Below, piece after piece: positions 2,300 through 46,864 of a DNA stretch of 64,000 bases. Source of the DNA: Polyangiaceae bacterium (GTDB taxonomy: Bacteria > Myxococcota_A > Polyangia > Polyangiales > Polyangiaceae); the NCBI GenBank assembly GCA_013214025.1, contig JABSRN010000065.1:1-64000 (forward strand), read 5' to 3'. The notes under the pieces were generated by a model. The model did no database searches and had not been told where the DNA came from. It saw only the letters and a list, made by a program, of their open reading frames with translations. Numbering within the stretch: the stretch's first letter is position 1; every line of letters starts with the position of its first letter. A program made the translations under genes and the position numbers.

Positions 2300-2636
2300 G
2301 TTGATGTTCCTTCTGTCTGAGATACGCGTGAGGAGCCGTTGTTCTTCTCGAATCGGGGACAAATATTGAATGGATCGCTGATGACTTCGTTTGGGGACAC
2401 CCCGGGTGGCGGATCGCCGGAATCGGCGCTGATCTGCCCCCATCTGCTCCGTTCGACTCCGAGCTGGTCCCCCTCCTTGGGTCGCTGGAAAAGCCCCGCA
2501 TTCAAGTGATAGCGGCCGCTTGGGACAAATTCGGCCCGGTGTTCAAAACAACGCTAGCCAAACCGCAAAGTTCCGGCTATCAAGCGCGCGCTTCCTGCCC
2601 GAAGTGGGCGATTGTTCTTCAGAAAAAGGTGTTCCA

Positions 2637-4445
2637 GTGACCGCTCCCAAGATCCGCAACGTGGCCATCATCGCCCACGTTGATCACGGCAAGACCACTT
2701 TGGTGGATGCCATGTTGCGCCAAACGGGGGTGTTCAAGGCGCACCAAGCAGTGGACGAACGCGTCATGGATACCGGCGATCTTGAAAAAGAGCGCGGAAT
2801 CACGATTCTCGCGAAGAACGCGAGCATCGTTTACGAGGGAACGAAGATCAACATCATCGATACCCCAGGTCATGCTGACTTTGGCGGCGAGGTCGAGCGC
2901 ACCCTGCGCATGGCCGATGGCGCCATTTTGCTGGTGGACGCAGCTGAGGGCCCGCTCCCCCAGACCCGCTTTGTGCTGAGCAAGGCACTGGAGCTGGGCA
3001 TGCCGATCATTGTGGTCATCAACAAGATCGATCGCCAGGATGCTCGTCCCGATGACGTGCTGACGGAAACCTTCGACCTGTTCTGCAATCTAGAAGCCAG
3101 CGACGAGCAGACGGATTTTGGGACTCTTTACGCGGTCGGCAAAGACGGCGTGGCATCATTGACCCTCGACGATCGCGGAACCGATCTCGATCCCATGTTC
3201 AAGATGATCATGGACAAGGTACCGGCACCGAAGGCGGACAACGAAGGTCCGGTTCAGTTCCTCGTGCATAACATCGAGCACGACGACTATGTCGGCCGTC
3301 TCGCGATTGGCCGTGTCTACCGAGGTAAGCTCGACACCGGCACCCGAGTGGCGCTGTTGGCTGACGGCAAAGAGACCGAAGGCAATGTGGGAACGATCTT
3401 CGCATTTGAAGGCGTCGAGCGCACCAAGATCCAAACTGCCATAGCTGGTGATTTGGTTTGTTTTAGCGGCTTCGAAGACGTGCAGATCGGTGACACTTTC
3501 ACGCACCCGGCTCATCGTGATGCGCTGGAACGCATTGTGGTGGAGCAGCCGACCATCAAGCTAACGATGAAGGTGAACGACTCGCCCTACGCTGGCTTGT
3601 CCGGCAAATGGGTGACGTCCCGTCATATCCGCGATCGGCTGATGAAAGAAGGCCGTCGGAACATCGCCATGAAAGTAGAAGCGACCGACTTGCCGGATAC
3701 CTACACAGTCTACGGCCGTGGTGAGCTCATGCTCAGCGTATTGGCGGAGACCATGCGGCGCGAAGGTTTCGAGTTCGCCTTGGGCATGCCCGAGGTGGTG
3801 ACCAAGGAAATCGACGGTGTGGTCATGGAACCCCTAGAGCGGGTGGTTATCGATACCCCCGAAGAATACGTTGGGACGATCACTACGTCTCTCGGTGAGC
3901 GTGGTGGCCGCATGGACAAGATGGTCGGTCTCGGCCACGGTCGGACTCGGCTGGAGTTCATTATCTCCGCGCGCGGTCTCATTGGCTTCCGCCCAGTCTT
4001 CCTTACCCAGACTCGCGGCATGGGGCTGCTCAGCACTATTTCCGAAGGCTGGGAGAAGCAGAGCACCGATCTGCTGCGTCGCCGCAACGGGGCTATCGTC
4101 TCCGACCGTAAGGGGACCACGACGCCCTATGCGCTCTTTCACTTGGAGCCGCGCGGCACCTTGTTCGTCGGGGCGAGCACTGACGTGTATGAGGGCATGG
4201 TCGTGGGCATGTTTAATCGTCCCAACGACTTGGACGTCAACGTCTGTCGCGAAAAGAAGCTGACGAATATTCGTTCTGCGAACAAGGACGAGAATGTCGT
4301 GCTGACGACTCCGCATCTGCAGACTATCGAGACGGCAATGGAGTACATCGACGCCGACGAGCTGATCGAAGTGACGCCGGATGCGGTTCGTATTCGTAAG
4401 CGCATCCTTCCGGGCAACATCCGCCCGAAGCGCCGCGAAGGTTGA
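2637..4445 (+). CDS. typA: GTPase BipA/TypA
   Basis: The product is a translational GTPase of the BipA/TypA family, a ribosome-associated factor linked to assembly and stress adaptation. Starting at the GTG at 2637 it has 602 residues, close to the family length, and the P-loop AHVDHGKTT lies at 13-21. Further G motifs are visible: ERGITI, DTPGHADF and NKIDR. The C-terminal half has the family pattern EPLERVVIDTPEEYVG and RGLIGFRPVFLTQTRG. A longer frame reaches back to a TTG at 2520, but AAAAAGG seven bases before the GTG and the length fit the later start better. The gene is monocistronic, with a terminator about 30 bp after the stop. Confidence 0.95.
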   Translation: MTAPKIRNVAIIAHVDHGKTTLVDAMLRQTGVFKAHQAVDERVMDTGDLEKERGITILAKNASIVYEGTKINIIDTPGHADFGGEVERTLRMADGAILLVDAAEGPLPQTRFVLSKALELGMPIIVVINKIDRQDARPDDVLTETFDLFCNLEASDEQTDFGTLYAVGKDGVASLTLDDRGTDLDPMFKMIMDKVPAPKADNEGPVQFLVHNIEHDDYVGRLAIGRVYRGKLDTGTRVALLADGKETEGNVGTIFAFEGVERTKIQTAIAGDLVCFSGFEDVQIGDTFTHPAHRDALERIVVEQPTIKLTMKVNDSPYAGLSGKWVTSRHIRDRLMKEGRRNIAMKVEATDLPDTYTVYGRGELMLSVLAETMRREGFEFALGMPEVVTKEIDGVVMEPLERVVIDTPEEYVGTITTSLGERGGRMDKMVGLGHGRTRLEFIISARGLIGFRPVFLTQTRGMGLLSTISEGWEKQSTDLLRRRNGAIVSDRKGTTTPYALFHLEPRGTLFVGASTDVYEGMVVGMFNRPNDLDVNVCREKKLTNIRSANKDENVVLTTPHLQTIETAMEYIDADELIEVTPDAVRIRKRILPGNIRPKRREG

Positions 4446-6036: not shown

Positions 6037-9000
6037 ATGAGCTACTTGATGGGCTTGGATATTGGCGGCGGCGGCGGCCGTTGTTTGCTGGTGAATACTG
6101 AATCCGGCGAGACCACTTCAGCCTTCCGCGCCTGGAGCTTTCCCGTGGCCCCAGAGACCGGCAACGTCGGCTTCGACATCGACCTCGATGCCCTGTGGTC
6201 GAGTCTCTGCGAAGCAGCCCAGGAGGCATTGGCCAAAAGCGGTGCGTCGTCGACCGATGTCAAGGGCGTCGCGGTGGCTGCGTTTCGCTTCGGCACCGTC
6301 ATCCTCGATGGCAATGGCGAGGCCGTCTACGCGGGTCCCAATCGTGATGGCCGAGCGGCGATGCAGGGCATGAGCATGGCTGGCGAGTACGGCGATGAAG
6401 TGGCAGCCGCGACCGGTCGATACCCCAATCCTGCCTTCGCGGTATCGCGAGTGCTGTGGCTCAAGGATGTGGCCGGCGATGAGTTCGCCAAAGCCAAGAC
6501 CGTGCTCGCGGCGAACGATTGGGTTGCTTACAAACTGTGCGGAGAATTAGCGACGGATTTTTCTCAAGCCGGGGAAACCGGAGTGTTCGATCTGAAGAAG
6601 CGGCAGTGGGCGAGCGACGTGCTCGAAAAGGTCGGTCTCTCGCCGTCCTTGTTCCCCGCGGTGAAACAGGCAGGCAGTTTGCTGGGCAAGCTAACTGGGG
6701 AATCTGCGGCGGCCCTTGGCTTGAACGCTGATACCGCGGTTGCCGTTGGCGGCGCCGACACCCAATGCGGTTTGCTCGGCATCGGTGCTGTCAACAGCGG
6801 TGACCTCGCTATTGTGGCAGGTACCACCGCTCCCATCCAATGGGTGACGGAGCAGGCGGAAATCGATCCGGCCAATCAGATTTGGTCCGGACAGCATGTG
6901 ACCGAGGGGCAATTCTTGCTCGAGGCAAACGCGGGTCCCGTCGGTGACGCTCTCGACTGGATGGGCAACACCATGTACGCCACGTCCCCTTCGCCGGCAG
7001 CGGCGCTATTGGGCGATGCGGCAGCGGCAGCTCCGGGCGCCCGCGGCGTGCAGTCTACTTTTGGGGTGTCCATTCACGATGCTCGCGCGGTCAAGGTGCC
7101 CATCGGCAGCGTAACCCTCTCGCACTTGTTCACGGCGCCCGAAACCGACCGCTCTGACATGGCTCGCTCGGTAGTAGAAGGTCTAGCCTTCGGCCTGAAA
7201 AAGAACCTCGAGCTGCTCGAGACCCTTCGAAAAGACAAGGCCGCAAAAATCCTGTTGGCAGGGGGCATGTCGCGGAGCGGGCTCTTTGCGCAAATTCTTG
7301 CGGACGTCAGCGGTGTGCCGGTCGAGGTCGGCGACTGCAACGAAGCGACCGCGTTGGGAGCCGCGATCTGCGCGGGTGTAGCCGCCGGAGTGTTTTCGGA
7401 CCTGGGCGCAGGTGCGACCCAGTTGGCGAAGCGCAGCCGGGTATTCACGCCGGGCACCAATGCCGAAAAATACGCGTCGATCTACTCCGGATGGTCGCGA
7501 TTGCACACGGCACAGGCCGCCGCGGATGAAGTCGCCCAGGAGCTAAAGATCGGTCAGATCATGGAGGGGATGGGCCAGCCGGAGGCGGAGACGGCCAGCG
7601 TCAAACGCACGAAGATATTCGTGAGTGCTGCGATGGACGACGAGGGCATCGCGGCTCTCGAAGAGCTAGGCGACGTCACCTATCAGAACTTCCGCGAGAC
7701 CCACAACCTGCTCACCGGCAATAGCCTCGTGCAAGCTCTGCAGGGTTACGAGGTATTCATCTGCGAAGTGGATCCGGTCGACGTTGGCGCGATTCAAAAG
7801 TGCAAGGAGCTCCGAGTGATTGCCACTTGTCGCGGCGATCCCGTAAATATCGACATTCCCGGCATGGGAGCTTTGGGCATTCCGGTGATCAACGCGCCTG
7901 GCCGCAACGCCGACGCAGTGGCGGACCTAACAATAGGTTTCGCTATCTCGATGGCCCGAAAACTCGCTGAAGCGGGCGAGTTCTTACGAGACGAAGATGT
8001 AGAAGCGGGCGACTTGGGCAAGATGGGCGCCGCATTTTCTCAGCTCCAAGGTAAGGAGCTCTGGCGCAAAACGTTCGGCTTGGTGGGCTTTGGGGCCATC
8101 GGGAAGAAGGTGGCGGCGCGCCTGGTGCCCTTTGGGGTCAAGGTGATCGTCAGCGATCCATTCGTGACTCCCGAAATCGCGGCCCTGCATGGCGCCACCA
8201 AGGTGGAATTCGATGAGCTGCTGGAAACGGCGGACTTTGTGTCGCTGCACGTGCCGGTTACTAAGTCCACCACGGGCATGATGGGTGTCGAGCAGTTCGC
8301 GAAGATGAAGCCCGGCTCCTTTTTCATCAACTCCGCCAGGGCGGCGCTCATTGACGAGCAGGCTCTGGTGGATACTCTGGAAGACGAGCATCTAGGCGGC
8401 GCTGCTGTCGATGTGTTCGCCGTTGAACCTCCGGGCTGGGATCATCCGCTGTTGGATCTCGAAAACGTGATCGCGACCCCCCATGTGGGCGGCAATACCT
8501 TCGAGGTAGCCACCCACCAGGGTCGGATTATCGCGGAAGATCTGAAGCGTATCCTCAGTGGACAAAAGCCTCGCTATGCGCTCAACCCCGAGTGTCTAGA
8601 GGCATTTGACATGAGCCAACCCCGAGTGGAGGCGAGTGCCGAAGAATTGGCGAAACTAGCGTCCGATGGCGGACCCGCCACAACGGACCTGGCCAAGGCG
8701 AAAAACGCCGATAAAACAACGGGCGCTGCCGCACGGCGCTCCGACGAAGACGAAGACGAAGACGAAGATTACGACGACGACGAGGAGGACGCCATGGGCA
8801 TCCCAGAAGAGAACCGCCAGATCATGGCGAGCATTTGTAGAGAATTTGTTCAAGGCATCATCACTGACGACGAGATCAAGAAGACCGAGGTGCCGCCGGT
8901 GACGCTCCACTTCAATATCTCCGACATTGGCGAGGAGTTTTGGTTCGCCCTAGATGACGGCAAGGTGAGCGGCGGCATGGGACCGCCGAAAGAAGACGCC

Positions 9001-9933
9001 GACGTGCAGCTCAAGATGGGCGCGTACATTCTCGACGGCATGTTCACCGGGAAGATCAACGCCATGGAAAAAGCCATGGCGGGTGAGTTGAGCTTTATGG
9101 GCGATGCCTCCAAGGCGATGACGCTACAGGAGATGCAGTCGTCTCTCGGACGTCTCTACAAAGCTGGTCGTGAAAAGTACGGCGATCCCGGCGATCTTGA
9201 GAAGCTAGCCAAAGAAGGCCCGCCGAAGAAAAAGGGCCGCAAGGGCAAACGCGCTGGCGCGACCGCAACGGTGGTTGCGGCGGGCCCCGTGAAGAAGCGC
9301 GTCGGCGACGAGCGCGACGATCTCTGCGATGTGGTCGAAGAACTGTACGGAATCGAACTCATCACGGCCACCGGCGGCAACGTCAGCGTGAAAGCCAGCA
9401 CCGGCGACGACGAATACTGGATTACGCCGAGCGCGATGTTCAAGGGGAACCTGGATCCGGAGACCATGGTTCGCATTTCGAACGACGGTAAGAAGGTGGG
9501 CGAGGGTGGCACCCCGTCCAGCGAGCGAATGGTGCATCTGGCCATGTACGAAGCACGGCCCAACGCCCGCGCGGTCATTCACTGTCATGCACCCCATGCG
9601 ACAATCCTCGCCAATACCGGATTGCCCTTCCTCCCCATCTCTACCGAGGCTGCATTCTTCGGTGAAATCGCCCGTATTCCCTTCATCATGCCGGGTACTC
9701 CCGACTTGGCGAGCGCCGTGGGCGAAGCGGCTAAGAACAGCCACGCTGTCTTGATGACCAATCACGGACTCGTGGTTGCCGGGCTCAGCCTGCGTAAATG
9801 CGCGGACATGGTCGAGGTCGTGGAACGCACCGCCGAGATCATTCTGGGCTGCTACGCGGTCGGCAAAGAGCCGCCAGTACTGCCGGCCGACGATGTGAAG
9901 AAGCTCCGTGAGATGGGCACGATGATGGCCTAG
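6037..9933 (+). CDS. Four-domain fusion: FGGY sugar kinase / 2-hydroxyacid dehydrogenase / SCP2 / class II aldolase
   Basis: The 1298-residue protein reads as four units. Residues 1-510 are an FGGY carbohydrate kinase (LDIGGGGGR near the start, GGADTQCGLLG, and LLAGGMSRSGLFAQ near 409). Residues 523-865 are a D-2-hydroxyacid dehydrogenase with Rossmann GFGAIG at about 684-689 and catalytic Arg768, Glu797 and His816. A run of Asp/Glu (901-918) leads to an SCP2-like domain (920-1045), then a Lys-rich linker. Residues 1089-1298 are a class II aldolase with GGNVS, Glu1163 and zinc ligands His1182, His1184 and His1243. The start at 6037 is chosen for its GGAG and because MSYLMGLDIGG opens the kinase fold. 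All catalytic residues checked are present. Separate kinase, dehydrogenase and aldolase genes of these families form sugar-catabolic operons in other bacteria (known, not checked here). The substrate is unknown. An ATG with GAGGAGG ahead of it at 8794 could also give a separate SCP2-aldolase product. Confidence 0.9.
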   Translation: MSYLMGLDIGGGGGRCLLVNTESGETTSAFRAWSFPVAPETGNVGFDIDLDALWSSLCEAAQEALAKSGASSTDVKGVAVAAFRFGTVILDGNGEAVYAGPNRDGRAAMQGMSMAGEYGDEVAAATGRYPNPAFAVSRVLWLKDVAGDEFAKAKTVLAANDWVAYKLCGELATDFSQAGETGVFDLKKRQWASDVLEKVGLSPSLFPAVKQAGSLLGKLTGESAAALGLNADTAVAVGGADTQCGLLGIGAVNSGDLAIVAGTTAPIQWVTEQAEIDPANQIWSGQHVTEGQFLLEANAGPVGDALDWMGNTMYATSPSPAAALLGDAAAAAPGARGVQSTFGVSIHDARAVKVPIGSVTLSHLFTAPETDRSDMARSVVEGLAFGLKKNLELLETLRKDKAAKILLAGGMSRSGLFAQILADVSGVPVEVGDCNEATALGAAICAGVAAGVFSDLGAGATQLAKRSRVFTPGTNAEKYASIYSGWSRLHTAQAAADEVAQELKIGQIMEGMGQPEAETASVKRTKIFVSAAMDDEGIAALEELGDVTYQNFRETHNLLTGNSLVQALQGYEVFICEVDPVDVGAIQKCKELRVIATCRGDPVNIDIPGMGALGIPVINAPGRNADAVADLTIGFAISMARKLAEAGEFLRDEDVEAGDLGKMGAAFSQLQGKELWRKTFGLVGFGAIGKKVAARLVPFGVKVIVSDPFVTPEIAALHGATKVEFDELLETADFVSLHVPVTKSTTGMMGVEQFAKMKPGSFFINSARAALIDEQALVDTLEDEHLGGAAVDVFAVEPPGWDHPLLDLENVIATPHVGGNTFEVATHQGRIIAEDLKRILSGQKPRYALNPECLEAFDMSQPRVEASAEELAKLASDGGPATTDLAKAKNADKTTGAAARRSDEDEDEDEDYDDDEEDAMGIPEENRQIMASICREFVQGIITDDEIKKTEVPPVTLHFNISDIGEEFWFALDDGKVSGGMGPPKEDADVQLKMGAYILDGMFTGKINAMEKAMAGELSFMGDASKAMTLQEMQSSLGRLYKAGREKYGDPGDLEKLAKEGPPKKKGRKGKRAGATATVVAAGPVKKRVGDERDDLCDVVEELYGIELITATGGNVSVKASTGDDEYWITPSAMFKGNLDPETMVRISNDGKKVGEGGTPSSERMVHLAMYEARPNARAVIHCHAPHATILANTGLPFLPISTEAAFFGEIARIPFIMPGTPDLASAVGEAAKNSHAVLMTNHGLVVAGLSLRKCADMVEVVERTAEIILGCYAVGKEPPVLPADDVKKLREMGTMMA

Positions 9934-10989: not shown

Positions 10990-12549
10990 CTACGGTTGAG
11001 TTCCGAGGGGAGTCGAGCCGGGCATCCCAGGTGGAATCAATGGCCCCAAGGAACTGGGAAGTGGCGGCATTGTTTGGGGGAACACTGTGGGTAGTCCGGG
11101 GATGACCGGCAGGGCGCTGGGCAGTGCCAATACGGGACCTGTGCGAGCTTGGTGCGAGGTGGACGGTGCGCGCTTCGACCCGCTATGGGAGTGGGGTCGT
11201 TGTTTTTTTGTTCGTTTCCGATCGGAAGCTTTCACTGGGCGAAGTGGTAGTGCCACTTGAGCCGCGGCTTGGCGTTCGATTTCGGCCAAGTGTTTGCCGG
11301 GGGTGGGGAGTGGCGGCGGAACATGATGAGGCTGCATTTGTTGGGCGACGAGGCCGGCGCCGGCCGTGAGTACGCCGGCGAGCAATAGCCAAACCCAGCG
11401 CCCTCGGCTCGACTTCGAGTCGTCGCAGGTTTTCTGGGGAGGGGATGCAGTGACGGCGGGCAATGCGGCAGTGGGTACTCCGGCGGTGGGTGAAGCGCCG
11501 GAGTGAGTCGGTCGTGTCGCGGTTGCCGGGGACAGCACCGGCGCTGCGTCGTCTACGGGAGCGACGGTTTTTGCTACTCCAGGGGCGGGCCCGCCAGGAG
11601 CCGCCGCTTCTTGCCAGCTTGCCATGGCCATCGCGCCGGTTTGATCCGCAGAGACTGCCACTGCACCCTGACTGATTGAGCACGCTGCCCGGCCTAGTGA
11701 ACGCGCGTGGGGCAGCAGCTCGGCCATAAAAGCTTCGGCGGATGGGGGTCGGAGCTTAGGATCGGCGCTCAGCCCCCGATGCACCAACGCACTCAGCTCA
11801 GTGCTCACGTGAGGCGCCCGCTGATGAAGCGGGACGATGGAATCGCGGATGAACTGCTGGGCAATAGCTTGGGGATTGGCTCCGCGAGCGGGAAGCTCCC
11901 CGCAGAGCATTTCGTACAAGATAGCTGCTGTACTGAAGAGGTCTGCCCGGGCATCCGCTTGGTCGGCAGAATAAGCCTGCTCGGGTGCCATATATTCCGG
12001 CGTGCCCATCACTGTGCCCGGTCGAGTCTTGAAGCGCTTGTACTCTTCTGAGTCGCGAACCTTGGCGATACCAAAGTCGAATAGTTTGACGCTCACGCCA
12101 TCGCCACTGGGTAGGACGAACACGTTGTCTGGCTTCATATCCCGATGAACGATTCCGTTCTGGTGGGCCGCACTCAATCCGGCCAGCATCTGAACCGTGA
12201 TGTCGATGGCGAGAGCCAGCTCAAGCTTTCCGGAGATATCCAGTATGGCTTGCAGCGATTCGCCCACCAGCAACTCCATGACCAAATAGGCGGAGCCATC
12301 GTCTGTGGTATCGACGTCTGTTACTTGTGCGACGTGGGGGTTCTTGATTGTCGCTGAAACTCGGGCTTCAGTCAGGAACCGTTCTACCAATCCCGGCTGG
12401 CGGCTGAGTTCCTCAAGCAGGAACTTCAGTGCGACGCGAGTCTTGAGGATTTCGTGTTCGGCTTCGTAGACCGTGCCCATGCCGCCTTCGCCGATCAGTC
12501 TGATGATTCGGTAGCGACCGCCGATGCGAGAACCAGATTCCAGAATCAT
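10990..12549 (-). CDS. Membrane-anchored Ser/Thr protein kinase
   Basis: This is a Hanks-type kinase of 519 residues. Its kinase domain spans about 12-280: Gly-rich loop GEGGMG at 20-25, catalytic Lys42, HRDMKPDN at 135-142, DFG at 158-160 and APE at 188-190, so it should be active. A single membrane segment lies near 385-402 (WVWLLLAGVLTAGAGLVA). The C-terminal part is a Pro-rich, low-complexity extracytoplasmic tail with many PLP/PGMP turns and no sensor domain I recognise. Such kinases are numerous in Myxococcota. The neighbouring gene upstream is a cobalamin adenosyltransferase, which gives no hint about the signal. Confidence 0.93.
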   Translation of the reverse strand: MILESGSRIGGRYRIIRLIGEGGMGTVYEAEHEILKTRVALKFLLEELSRQPGLVERFLTEARVSATIKNPHVAQVTDVDTTDDGSAYLVMELLVGESLQAILDISGKLELALAIDITVQMLAGLSAAHQNGIVHRDMKPDNVFVLPSGDGVSVKLFDFGIAKVRDSEEYKRFKTRPGTVMGTPEYMAPEQAYSADQADARADLFSTAAILYEMLCGELPARGANPQAIAQQFIRDSIVPLHQRAPHVSTELSALVHRGLSADPKLRPPSAEAFMAELLPHARSLGRAACSISQGAVAVSADQTGAMAMASWQEAAAPGGPAPGVAKTVAPVDDAAPVLSPATATRPTHSGASPTAGVPTAALPAVTASPPQKTCDDSKSSRGRWVWLLLAGVLTAGAGLVAQQMQPHHVPPPLPTPGKHLAEIERQAAAQVALPLRPVKASDRKRTKKQRPHSHSGSKRAPSTSHQARTGPVLALPSALPVIPGLPTVFPQTMPPLPSSLGPLIPPGMPGSTPLGTQP

Positions 12550-16199: not shown

Positions 16200-17414
16200 T
16201 TAGGTGACGCGAATGTACGCGAAGCGGCGTTTCTTGGAACCCACTCGGACTAGGTAGCGGGAGCCTCGGTCGAGTTGGTGTTGCCTGTCTCGAACGCGCT
16301 CTTCGTTGACGGATACGCCCCCTTGGGTAATCAAACGCCGCCCTTCGCTCCCCGAGGACGCGAGCTTGGCCGCTGCGAGCGCTTTGGCGAGTAGAAGGTG
16401 CTCGCCTTCGGTCGGGACATCGATTTCGGGGACATCGTCCGGAATGCCCGTTCCCATGTACGTACTGTCGAAGGTTTTTTTCGCAGCCGCGGCAGCTTCG
16501 GCGTCGTGGAAACGAGTCACCATCTCGTTGGCGAAACTGGCTTTCGCTTGGAGCGGCCGGCTCTCCTTCTTGAGCGTGGAGAGCTCGCTCGCCGATTTGT
16601 CGCTCAGCAAGTCGAAGAATCGCCAGATGATGTCATCGCCGATTTGCATGCACTTGCGATACATCTCGACGGGCGCGTCGTTCAGCCCGACGTAGTTGTC
16701 GGCGCTCTTGCTCATCTTCTTGCCGACGACGACGCTGTCGACCATCTTGGCGTCGATGCCTTCGAGGATCGGGACCGTCATGACGATCTGCGGCGTCTTT
16801 CCGTAGCGAGTCATGAGATCTCGGCCCACCATCAGATTGAATAGCTGATCGGTGCCGCCCAGTTCGACATCGGACTCCAGGGCGACCGAATCGTATCCCT
16901 GCAGTAGCGGGTACAGGAGCTCATGAATGTAGATGTCCCGATGCGACTCGAAACGTTCCATAAAATCTCGGCGCTCCAGAGTACGCGCGACGGTGCGTTT
17001 CGCTGCCAGCTCGATCATCTCGGAGAGCGGCATCTTGTCGAGCCATTCGCTATTGTAGACAACCGTGGTGGCGTCCCGATCGAGGATTTTGAACGCTTGC
17101 TCGGTGTAGGTAGCGGCTGCGGCGAGCACCTCGGGGCGCGTGAGCCGAGGACGCAAATCGTTTCTTCCCGTGGGGTCGCCGACCATCGCCGTGAAATCGC
17201 CGATGAGAAATTGTACCTCGTGCCCCAGCTCCTGGAACTGACGCATCTTCTGCATCAGCACCGTATGGCCGAGGTGGAGATCCGGGCGTGTGGGATCGAA
17301 GCCGGCTTTGATTTTTAGCGGTTTGCCGGTCTCCAGGCGTCGGAGGAGGTCGTCTTGATCGTGTACATCTACGCAGCCACGCAGGAGGATTTCGAGTTGA
17401 TCGCCGGCGTTCAT
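16200..17414 (-). CDS. tyrS: Tyrosyl-tRNA synthetase
   Basis: A class I aminoacyl-tRNA synthetase that charges tRNA-Tyr. The HIGH motif reads HLGH inside DLHLGHTVLMQ, and KMSKS is intact in VVVGKKMSKSADNY. The C-terminal part (about 340-404) is an S4-like RNA-binding domain (GGVSVNEERV). The start at 17414 gives 404 residues, typical for the bacterial long TyrRS subgroup, and a weak GGTGAT lies upstream; an in-frame extension to 17522 looks untranslated. Its stop is followed one base later by the GTG of a lipoprotein gene. Confidence 0.95.
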   Translation of the reverse strand: MNAGDQLEILLRGCVDVHDQDDLLRRLETGKPLKIKAGFDPTRPDLHLGHTVLMQKMRQFQELGHEVQFLIGDFTAMVGDPTGRNDLRPRLTRPEVLAAAATYTEQAFKILDRDATTVVYNSEWLDKMPLSEMIELAAKRTVARTLERRDFMERFESHRDIYIHELLYPLLQGYDSVALESDVELGGTDQLFNLMVGRDLMTRYGKTPQIVMTVPILEGIDAKMVDSVVVGKKMSKSADNYVGLNDAPVEMYRKCMQIGDDIIWRFFDLLSDKSASELSTLKKESRPLQAKASFANEMVTRFHDAEAAAAAKKTFDSTYMGTGIPDDVPEIDVPTEGEHLLLAKALAAAKLASSGSEGRRLITQGGVSVNEERVRDRQHQLDRGSRYLVRVGSKKRRFAYIRVT

Positions 17415-44914: not shown

Positions 44915-46864
44915 TCAGGTGCTCGGCGCGGTTTTGGGTGAGCCGAAGATGCTAGCGGGCCTCTTCTTCTCGGTATCGGTTTCCTTGGGAGCGGAGTCGC
45001 GGGTGCCGTAGGTCGGCATCACGATCTTCTCGCGATCCGGGAGCTCCGTGCCCGCCATAGCGGCGGTGATTTCTTCGCGGTCCAGGGTTTCGCGGACGAG
45101 CAAGGCCTCGGCGATACGGTCCAGCTGTTCTCGATTCTCCTCGATGGTGCTGACGGCCAACTCGTATTGACTGTCCACGATCTTGCGGACTTCCTCATCG
45201 ATTTTGCGGGCGGTTTCGTTGGAGTAATCGTCGCTTCGGCTGGCCATTTCGCGTCCGAGGAAGATGTTGCTGTCGGAGTTACCGTAGGCAATGGGGCCCA
45301 TCACCTCGCTCATACCTAGTTCACACACCATGGCGCGAGCGAGCTTGGTGGCGCGCTTGATGTCGTCGGACGCCCCGCTCGTGAGCTCATCGAACACGAG
45401 CTCTTCGGCGGCACGGCCGCCCATTGCCATCGCGATGCGGGCGAGGGTCTGCGTCTTGTTGACGGTGTGCCTATCTTCTTCGGGTAAGAACATCGTGACT
45501 CCGAGAGCTGCCCCTCGAGGGATAATGGAGACCTTGTGCACGGGGTCGTTGCCTTTAACCAGACGCCCCACCAGGGTGTGACCGGCCTCGTGCCAGGCTG
45601 AGATCCTTTTTTCTGCCTCGCTCATCACCATGCTTCGGCGCTCGGTTCCCATCAGGACCTTGTCCTTGGCGAACTCGAAATCGGTCATGCTGACCGAGTC
45701 TTTGTCCTGACGGGCGGCTAATAGGGCTGCCTCGTTCACCAGATTTTCCAAATCGGCGCCGACAAATCCGGGGCAGCCGGCAGCAATGACCGAGAGCTTC
45801 ACGTTGGTGTCCAGAGGCACCTTCTTGGTGTGGACTACGAGGATGCCCTCCCGGCCGCGCACATCAGGTCGAGGCACGGTGATCTGTCGGTCAAATCGGC
45901 CCGGTCGCAGCAGGGCGGGATCCAGCACGTCGGGACGGTTCGTCGCGGCGACCATGATCACGCCTTCGGAGGATTGAAAACCGTCCATTTCTACGAGCAA
46001 CTGATTCAACGTTTGCTCGCGTTCGTCGTGCCCACCGCCGAGGCCAGCACCCCGATGACGCCCGACCGCATCGATTTCGTCGATGAAGATGATGCAGGGA
46101 GCATGCTTCTTGCCCTGCTCGAATAGGTCTCGGACTCGGCTAGCGCCCACGCCGACGAACATTTCGACGAAGTCAGAGCCGGAGATCGCGAAGAAGGGCA
46201 CGGCAGCTTCCCCGGCGATGGCTCGGGCCAACAGGGTCTTGCCGGTGCCCGGGGGCCCCACCATGAGCACGCCCTTGGGGATGCGTCCGCCGAGTCGCTG
46301 AAATTTCTTGGGATCCCGCAGGAAGGCGATGATCTCCTCCACTTCGTCCTTCGCCTCATCGGCGCCGGCGACGTCCGCGAAGGTGACCTTATTTTGGGCG
46401 TCGTTGAGCAGGCGAGCTGGGCTCTTGCCGAAACTCATCGCCTTACCGCCGCCGGCCTGCAGCTGCCGCATGAAAAGGTAAAACATCACCAATAGGAATA
46501 CCATTGGCAGCAGGAAGGTGAGAGCGGTGGCCAGGTACGGGCTGTCGTCCTGCTTCTGGAAATTTACGTTAACGCCGTGCTCAAGCAGTTCGGTGACGAT
46601 GGCATCGTCCTCGGGGCCAACGGTGATGCCCTTCTCTTCCAGATCGCCGACCTTCGGGTTGACCGTGATGAAACTGTACTCTCGGCCTTTGATCTCTACC
46701 GAGGTGACATGTTTCACCTTGTCGCCAGCTTTGACGAACGCCATGAACTCGCTGAACGGCTTAGGCTTGGTCCCCGCCGCCTCCGGGCTGAGCATGTGCC
46801 AGATGGCAAGGAAGGCGACGATAAGAGAGACCCAAAGGAGTAGGGTTTTGTGCGGTTGCTTCAC
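44915..46864 (-). CDS. ftsH: ATP-dependent zinc metalloprotease FtsH
   Basis: A membrane-bound AAA+ protease of 649 residues. N-terminal membrane segments ([17 protein letters not shown] and [21 protein letters not shown]) bracket a periplasmic domain. The AAA+ module has Walker A GPPGTGKT, Walker [16 protein letters not shown] and the arginine finger region RPGRFDRQI. The protease zinc motif HEAGH lies in [13 protein letters not shown]. Length and order are standard for bacteria. It is the last gene of the tilS run, with 89 bp after tilS, an arrangement common in bacteria (known context). Confidence 0.97.

Follow-up and report, generated by a model that had tools for sequence, protein, structure and literature searches.

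A fused kinase, dehydrogenase, SCP2 and class II aldolase protein with a possible role in bacteriohopanepolyol breakdown

A four-domain gene in a Polyangiaceae contig

The stretch of DNA analysed here (the window) comprises 64,000 nucleotides, positions 1 to 64,000 of contig JABSRN010000065.1 from a Polyangiaceae bacterium (assembly GCA_013214025.1), and contains a gene that joins a kinase, a dehydrogenase, a lipid-carrier domain and an aldolase in one polypeptide. The gene is a single open reading frame (ORF) on the forward strand, running from an ATG at 6037 to a stop codon at 9931–9933 with no internal stop, and encodes 1,298 residues. Domains were assigned with Pfam, using gathering scores as thresholds, and all lie above them: FGGY_N (residues 3–248, E = 5e-39) and FGGY_C (257–450, 2e-22), 2-Hacid_dh with 2-Hacid_dh_C (528–850; 2.8e-13 and 1.7e-53), SCP2 (956–1033, 9.5e-09; 36 bits, gathering score 21.3) and Aldolase_II (1095–1269, 1e-43). 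The initial annotation had described one frame of 1,298 codons with four domain types, a description that the search of the full protein bears out, recovering all four rather than two. The features of the gene are as follows.

6037–9933, + strand: complete four-domain fusion gene, 1,298 residues; uninterrupted ORF with about 40 full-length homologues elsewhere
6043–7386, + strand: FGGY kinase with catalytic Asp241; Pfam, nearest Protein Data Bank (PDB) chain LsrK 5ya0 (E = 3e-63)
7618–8586, + strand: D-2-hydroxyacid dehydrogenase domain, residues 528–850; Pfam, PDB matches McyI and PGDH (E about 1e-45)
8743–8790, + strand: acidic low-complexity linker between dehydrogenase and SCP2, about residues 903–918; from the sequence, with gapped and unconserved alignment columns
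8830–9180, + strand: SCP2 (sterol-carrier-protein) domain, residues 932–1048; Pfam, AlphaFold 2 model with a predicted local distance difference test (pLDDT) score of 93.4, fold match 1ikt
9211–9291, + strand: basic flexible linker, about residues 1059–1085; AlphaFold 2 pLDDT below 50 at model residues 135–153
9292–9930, + strand: FucA/DrdA-like class II aldolase domain, residues 1086–1298; Pfam, PDB profile match to DrdA, VIA-align comparison and conservation

The SCP2 domain is flanked by flexible linkers on both sides, and the GC content of the gene is that of its surroundings.

Catalytic residues and domain folds

Residue conservation was read from 70 aligned kinase–dehydrogenase sequences and 42 aldolase domains. 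The kinase residue D241 is kept in 69 of the 70 sequences, the remaining one having a gap at this position; together with FGGY_N and FGGY_C, this catalytic Asp places the first part of the protein among the FGGY kinases. The dehydrogenase residues R768, E797 and H816 are kept in 69–70 of the 70 sequences, and this Arg/Glu/His triad, with a GxGxxG motif at residues 684–689, assigns the second part to the D-2-hydroxyacid dehydrogenase superfamily. Its C598-R599 loop, which is unusual, is equally conserved (69–70 of 70), the C-R pair opening a CRGDxVNxD-like segment at fusion residues 598–606 (window 7828–7854). Other 2-hydroxyacid dehydrogenases bear at that position a glycine-rich loop that binds the substrate carboxylate, and the extra Arg of the fusion could act as a phosphate binder.

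In the aldolase, the catalytic E1163 and the metal ligands H1182, H1184 and H1243 are identical in all 42 domains, as are N1115, S1161 and S1162 of the phosphate site, with S1132 present in 39. The fold, the three metal-binding His residues, the catalytic Glu and the phosphate-site Asn and Ser residues are those of the FucA/DrdA branch of class II aldolases, for which the predicted activity is cleavage of a ketose-1-phosphate to dihydroxyacetone phosphate (DHAP) and an aldehyde. The profile of the SCP2 and aldolase parts has DrdA (6btd, E = 7e-38) as its top PDB match, followed by FucA, and the AlphaFold model of the aldolase (pLDDT 90) aligns to FucA and DrdA with a VIA-align Z of about 28. 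The catalytic residues that the earlier reading described as intact in the three enzymes are present and almost invariant across the aligned sequences.

A fold search with SCP2 and aldolase combined returned mostly aldolases, and the SCP2 domain was modelled separately. The model alone (pLDDT 93.4) matches best the liganded SCP-2L domain of human MFE-2 (1ikt; Z 13.1, 107 aligned, root mean square deviation 2.3), after which come other SCP2 proteins and the alkylsulfatase domain that resembles SCP2. The hydrophobic pattern of the domain is conserved, and its predicted function is the binding of a hydrophobic ligand.

The best NCBIfam matches of the enzyme parts are partial, and all fall below their cut-offs. 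The best match of the kinase is LsrK (NF008187; 276.9 bits against a cut-off of 528); the dehydrogenase scores 226 bits to PGDH/SerA (TIGR01327; cut-off 454), and the aldolase part 111 bits to 3-oxo-tetronate-4-phosphate decarboxylase and 97 bits to FucA, both below their cut-offs. Plain use of autoinducer-2 in the manner of LsrK was rejected, since the LsrK cut-off is missed and the gene context differs.

Distribution and evolution of the fusion

Relatives were sought in one genome per species, and the best 80 of 401 were kept. These 80 include Myxococcota/Deltaproteobacteria, five Mycobacterium species, Chloroflexota, Halioglobus and other Gammaproteobacteria, Planctomycetota, Actinomycetota, Smithella and others. 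Their near-complete members comprise 40 independent kinase–dehydrogenase–SCP2–aldolase loci with a full aldolase, from Myxococcota, Mycobacterium, Chloroflexota, Gammaproteobacteria and others and all in genomes other than that of the window gene, which is additional to them, four kinase–dehydrogenase–SCP2 proteins and one kinase–dehydrogenase–aldolase protein; the tree set further contains 22 kinase–dehydrogenase forms, of which some are cut by contig ends and one (L082) ends at an in-frame stop. The same domain order recurs at about 41–52% identity in many unrelated assemblies, among them those of Mycobacterium isolates and one complete chromosome from Planctomycetota. A frameshift artefact, which the initial annotation had named as a refuting outcome, or an assembly artefact was rejected, because the fusion is present on about 40 independent contigs.

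Within the phylum of the window, an essentially complete fusion is found in about 20 of 379 genomes (44–52% identity). It is found in none of the 38 other genomes of the close-relatives search (24 of the same family, the rest of the same order), nor in genome G397. The spread of the fusion is likely to be patchy, because it is missing from close relatives and present in distant families of the phylum and in other phyla; on the same grounds, vertical inheritance within the family of the window was rejected.

The component enzymes also occur unfused, a point that the first reading had proposed to check. Eight kinase–dehydrogenase forms are followed, 25–91 bp downstream, by a separate class II aldolase gene, and at L114 (Anaerolineales) kinase, dehydrogenase and aldolase are three adjacent separate genes. 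In a tree of the kinase–dehydrogenase part, the window protein groups with L058, L055, L056, L061, L074, L082 and three kinase–dehydrogenase–SCP2 proteins (support 94). Changes of architecture label on this tree are far fewer than with shuffled labels, and fusion and loss occurred several times.

Several shorter forms have surroundings of their own. The kinase–dehydrogenase–SCP2 proteins of L095, L102 and L127 had no aldolase within the flanks examined, and may represent another exit from the pathway; at L095 a second dehydrogenase-like gene (29% identity to that of the fusion) overlaps the start of the kinase–dehydrogenase–SCP2 gene. Actinomycetota kinase–dehydrogenase fusions of about 888 residues (L090, L093, L097–L100, L104, L110 and L125) have no aldolase or SCP2 close by, and two of these loci (L099 and L110) have an aldehyde:ferredoxin oxidoreductase (AOR) gene upstream. 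In Smithella and relatives (L088, L091, L092, L094, L096, L103 and L105), an 888-residue kinase–dehydrogenase is followed by a separate class II aldolase, which is more distant, at about 30% identity to the fused aldolase.

Gene neighbourhood

Neighbouring genes at all 80 loci were identified by tblastn. A recurrent order in Myxococcota and Proteobacteria, complete at L058 and L074, consists of an AMP-ligase, in some cases a TetR regulator, a cytochrome P450 (P450), the fusion, a KshA-like Rieske oxygenase and a CasG-like ligase; parts of it are found at L055, L056, L061, L063, L068, L077, L102 and L124. A CasG-like ligase lies on the same strand within 1.1 kb downstream of the fusion at 8 of the 36 four-domain loci with enough flank, where 0.02–0.04 would be expected, and is often accompanied by a P450 and a KshA-like Rieske oxygenase. 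These ligases are 49–100% identical to that of L061 (about 550–1150 bits), which itself scores 684 bits to ‘steroid-24-oyl-CoA synthetase CasG’. In whole-genome coordinates, the CasG-like gene begins 41–77 bp downstream of the fusion in G316, G238, G372, G054, G310 and G352, and the fusion is followed by KshA and then the CasG-like gene in G168 and G132, some of these genomes being the same as those behind the eight loci.

Other loci carry other members of the same kind of gene set. KshA, VOC, CasG and amidohydrolase genes lie near the fusion at L071, L084 and L086 (amidohydrolase and VOC in Gammaproteobacteria); a thiolase and ChsH2 stand beside it at L071, and ChsH2/Ltp2-like genes are among the neighbours. 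The order at L060 is DUF1329, fusion, YCF48, MMPL and DUF1302, a set known from steroid and hydrocarbon gene clusters. AOR adjoins the fusion in the Chloroflexota loci L065 and L126, and an aldehyde dehydrogenase is present at four Mycobacterium loci, which fits the enzymes expected after release of a hydrophobic aldehyde. The presence of the SCP2 domain had been taken as a hint that the substrate could be unusual, and the neighbourhood, with its CasG-like ligase, KshA-like oxygenase, P450, AOR and DUF1329/RND genes, supports a hydrophobic one.

The source genome (G000) carries a comparable set on another contig (C13; L134:2121–11374), where a KshA-like Rieske oxygenase, two PimC/PimD-like acyl-CoA dehydrogenases, a CasG-like ligase, two amidohydrolases (Amidohydro_2 proteins) and an FAD oxidoreductase stand in a row with the look of an operon for the catabolism of steroids or triterpenoids. 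The C13 ligase scores 638 bits and has an extra insert of about 50–60 residues; a CasG family search at E 1e-130 missed it, probably because the insert splits the match, and a direct search found it. Among 36 genomes of the family, only one other has a comparable ligase, and that genome lacks the fusion. In the window itself, a serine/threonine protein kinase-like gene (10990–12549, − strand) adjoins the fusion, and genes named by eye include TypA-like (2604–4445), TyrS-like (16200–17414) and FtsH-like (44915–46864) housekeeping genes.

Proposed reaction sequence and substrate

A kinase, a dehydrogenase and a FucA-type aldolase acting in turn need a substrate with a terminal R-CHOH-CHOH-CHOH-CH2OH, which would be cleaved to DHAP and R-CHO. 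Bacteriohopanetetrol (BHT) carries this end on a steroid-like body. The fusion probably handles some steroid-like polyol lipid; that it is a multifunctional catabolic enzyme removing the polyol end of BHT or related bacteriohopanepolyols taken up from outside is, in our judgement, an evenly balanced proposition. The wider proposal, which we hold tentatively and with slightly more doubt than belief, makes it the entry enzyme of a widespread bacterial route of bacteriohopanepolyol degradation, releasing DHAP and a C32 hopanoid acid with one polypeptide and a built-in lipid carrier, as an enzymatic counterpart of periodate (‘Rohmer’) cleavage.

In the proposed sequence, the FGGY kinase would transfer phosphate from ATP to the terminal C35 hydroxyl of BHT, and the dehydrogenase would use NAD to oxidise the C34 hydroxyl, giving a 5-alkyl-5-deoxy-ribulose-1-phosphate. 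The FucA/DrdA-like metal aldolase would then cut between C32 and C33 to give DHAP, destined for glycolysis, and a C32 hopanal, while the SCP2 domain would hold the hydrophobic ring body and hand it between active sites. The C32 aldehyde would be oxidised to the acid, at some loci by AOR or aldehyde dehydrogenase, and the CasG-like ligase would activate this acid for breakdown of the bile-acid side-chain type. The side chain of the C32 hopanoid acid, CH(CH3)-CH2-CH2-COOH on a five-membered ring, equals the five-carbon side chain of the cholan-24-oic acids, the class of compounds on which CasG acts. BHT carbons 33 and 32 come from C3′ and C4′ of ribose, and retention of the ribose configuration there would make the ketose phosphate 3R,4R. 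The side chain of BHT derives from adenosylhopane and ribosylhopane (PMC12583986), and DrdA and FucA form or cleave 3R,4R ketose-1-phosphates giving DHAP, the configuration for DrdA being inferred from FucA (PMC6079011).

Phosphorylation, oxidation and retro-aldol cleavage in one polypeptide, as first suggested, fit the domain order, the intact residues and the occurrence of the same enzymes as adjacent genes (L114) or as kinase–dehydrogenase plus aldolase (L092 and others), and stand as a predicted activity. The sugar assumed as substrate calls for revision: the gene context indicates a polyol borne by a steroid-like body, and the likeliest such compound is a bacteriohopanepolyol.

Several observations weigh against this assignment. 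The ligases miss the CasG cut-off of NF052580 (750 bits; L061 684, source genome 638, maximum 731 over 379 genomes) and are CasG-like, not CasG. At most loci neither CasG nor KshA adjoins the fusion and the genes that do are uninformative; KshA-like and P450 genes serve other substrates too; and co-occurrence with CasG at the genome level (32 of 36 genomes compared with 59 of 343, by hand count) is confounded by taxonomy. The fusion in the window sits amid housekeeping genes, with the partner set on another contig, and the deep-branching kinase–dehydrogenase forms of Actinomycetota and Smithella have no SCP2 close by, and their substrates may be other than lipids. The usual substrates of the dehydrogenase family are 2-hydroxy acids rather than CH(OH)-CH2-O-phosphate, and the protein sequence does not distinguish a hopane from another triterpenoid, steroid or polycyclic lipid.

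The same kinase–dehydrogenase–aldolase logic might be applied to another steroid-like or terpenoid polyol, such as a bile alcohol, a hydroxylated sterol side chain or another triterpenoid. The CasG, KshA, P450, DUF1329/RND and ChsH2/Ltp2-like neighbours all have known roles in the catabolism of steroids, and hopanoid specificity attaches to none of them; to our knowledge, however, no common sterol or bile alcohol has the linear terminal tetrol needed for a C24-type acid, whereas BHT has one, and we consider this alternative unlikely. We give a similarly low probability to an ordinary soluble-sugar route resembling the DHAP shunt, on a 5-deoxy-pentitol or a ribityl compound (for example, riboflavin or F420 derivatives), with SCP2 a mere spacer or stabiliser. 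A ribityl chain offers the same terminal tetrol, LsrK and DrdA/FucA are the nearest relatives of the kinase and aldolase, and versions lacking SCP2 exist (L092, L101 and L114), but nearly all fused-aldolase proteins, across several phyla, retain SCP2 with its conserved hydrophobic pattern, the neighbours include a steroid-type ligase and oxygenase, and no lsr genes or LsrK-type operon were seen beside the fusions when checked by eye, with no systematic count.

HpnH had no match in the source genome; of the 36 genomes that carry the fusion or parts of it, 27 gave no match and 9 did. HpnH is required for C35 hopanoids, so the substrate would mostly not be home-made, and uptake and breakdown fit better than own synthesis. 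A biosynthetic or remodelling role, with the aldolase working towards bond formation or the enzyme editing the cell’s own hopanoids, is very improbable: aldolases are reversible and those nine genomes match HpnH, but the kinase step is irreversible in practice, most of the genomes lack an HpnH match and the neighbours are catabolic.

In soils and sediments, hopanoids rank among the most abundant lipids made by bacteria, and hopane molecular fossils derive from them. In the open literature searched, we found no description of this fusion, of genes for hopanoid side-chain cleavage or of any named gene for hopanoid breakdown, the formation of hopanoic acids being put down to diol cleavage with no named enzyme. 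Hopanoic acids are attributed to oxidative cleavage of the vicinal diols of bacteriohopanoids (PMC4339782); the C32 acid often ranks first among them in abundance, as it did in a recent study (PMC11884234). If the fusion does degrade bacteriohopanepolyols, it would be a genetic marker for hopanoid consumption and would provide a route to C32 hopanoic acid, which is common in sediments.

Comparison with known systems

The nearest parallel in chemistry is the DHAP shunt of 5-deoxyribose salvage, with DrdA and the kinase–isomerase–aldolase cluster of B. thuringiensis (PMC6079011), in which phosphorylation and a ketose-1-phosphate likewise lead to a class II aldolase yielding DHAP and an aldehyde; the aldolase domain of the fusion is nearest to DrdA by sequence profile. 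The fusion differs in having a dehydrogenase (polyol to ketone) in the place of the isomerase, for which Pfam finds no domain, and an LsrK-like FGGY kinase, and in combining all activities in a single protein, which also has a lipid-binding domain and whose gene has steroid-type neighbours. It may resemble the DHAP shunt in its working, and is not a member of it. LsrK, the autoinducer-2 kinase, is both the nearest solved structure and the best NCBIfam match of the kinase, whereas the score (277 bits, with the cut-off at 528) and the surrounding genes, as seen by eye, set the two apart. Bile-acid side-chain catabolism (CasG, Sal/Ltp2 and KshA) is linked to the fusion by the adjoining CasG-like ligase; we know of no counterpart of the fusion in that pathway.

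Human peroxisomal MFE-2 (HSD17B4), which acts on bile-acid side chains, also tethers SCP2 to consecutive enzymes that include a dehydrogenase, and its SCP2 domain has the nearest fold (1ikt, Z 13.1). Its enzymes are a β-oxidation dehydrogenase and a hydratase, with no kinase or aldolase; the fusion, compared with it through the SCP2 domain, is not a member of this family. Even with another lipid polyol as substrate, the fusion would be a multi-step assembly line, and, if the proposed function is correct, a bacterial parallel to MFE-2 in which an SCP2 domain is tethered to consecutive enzymes.

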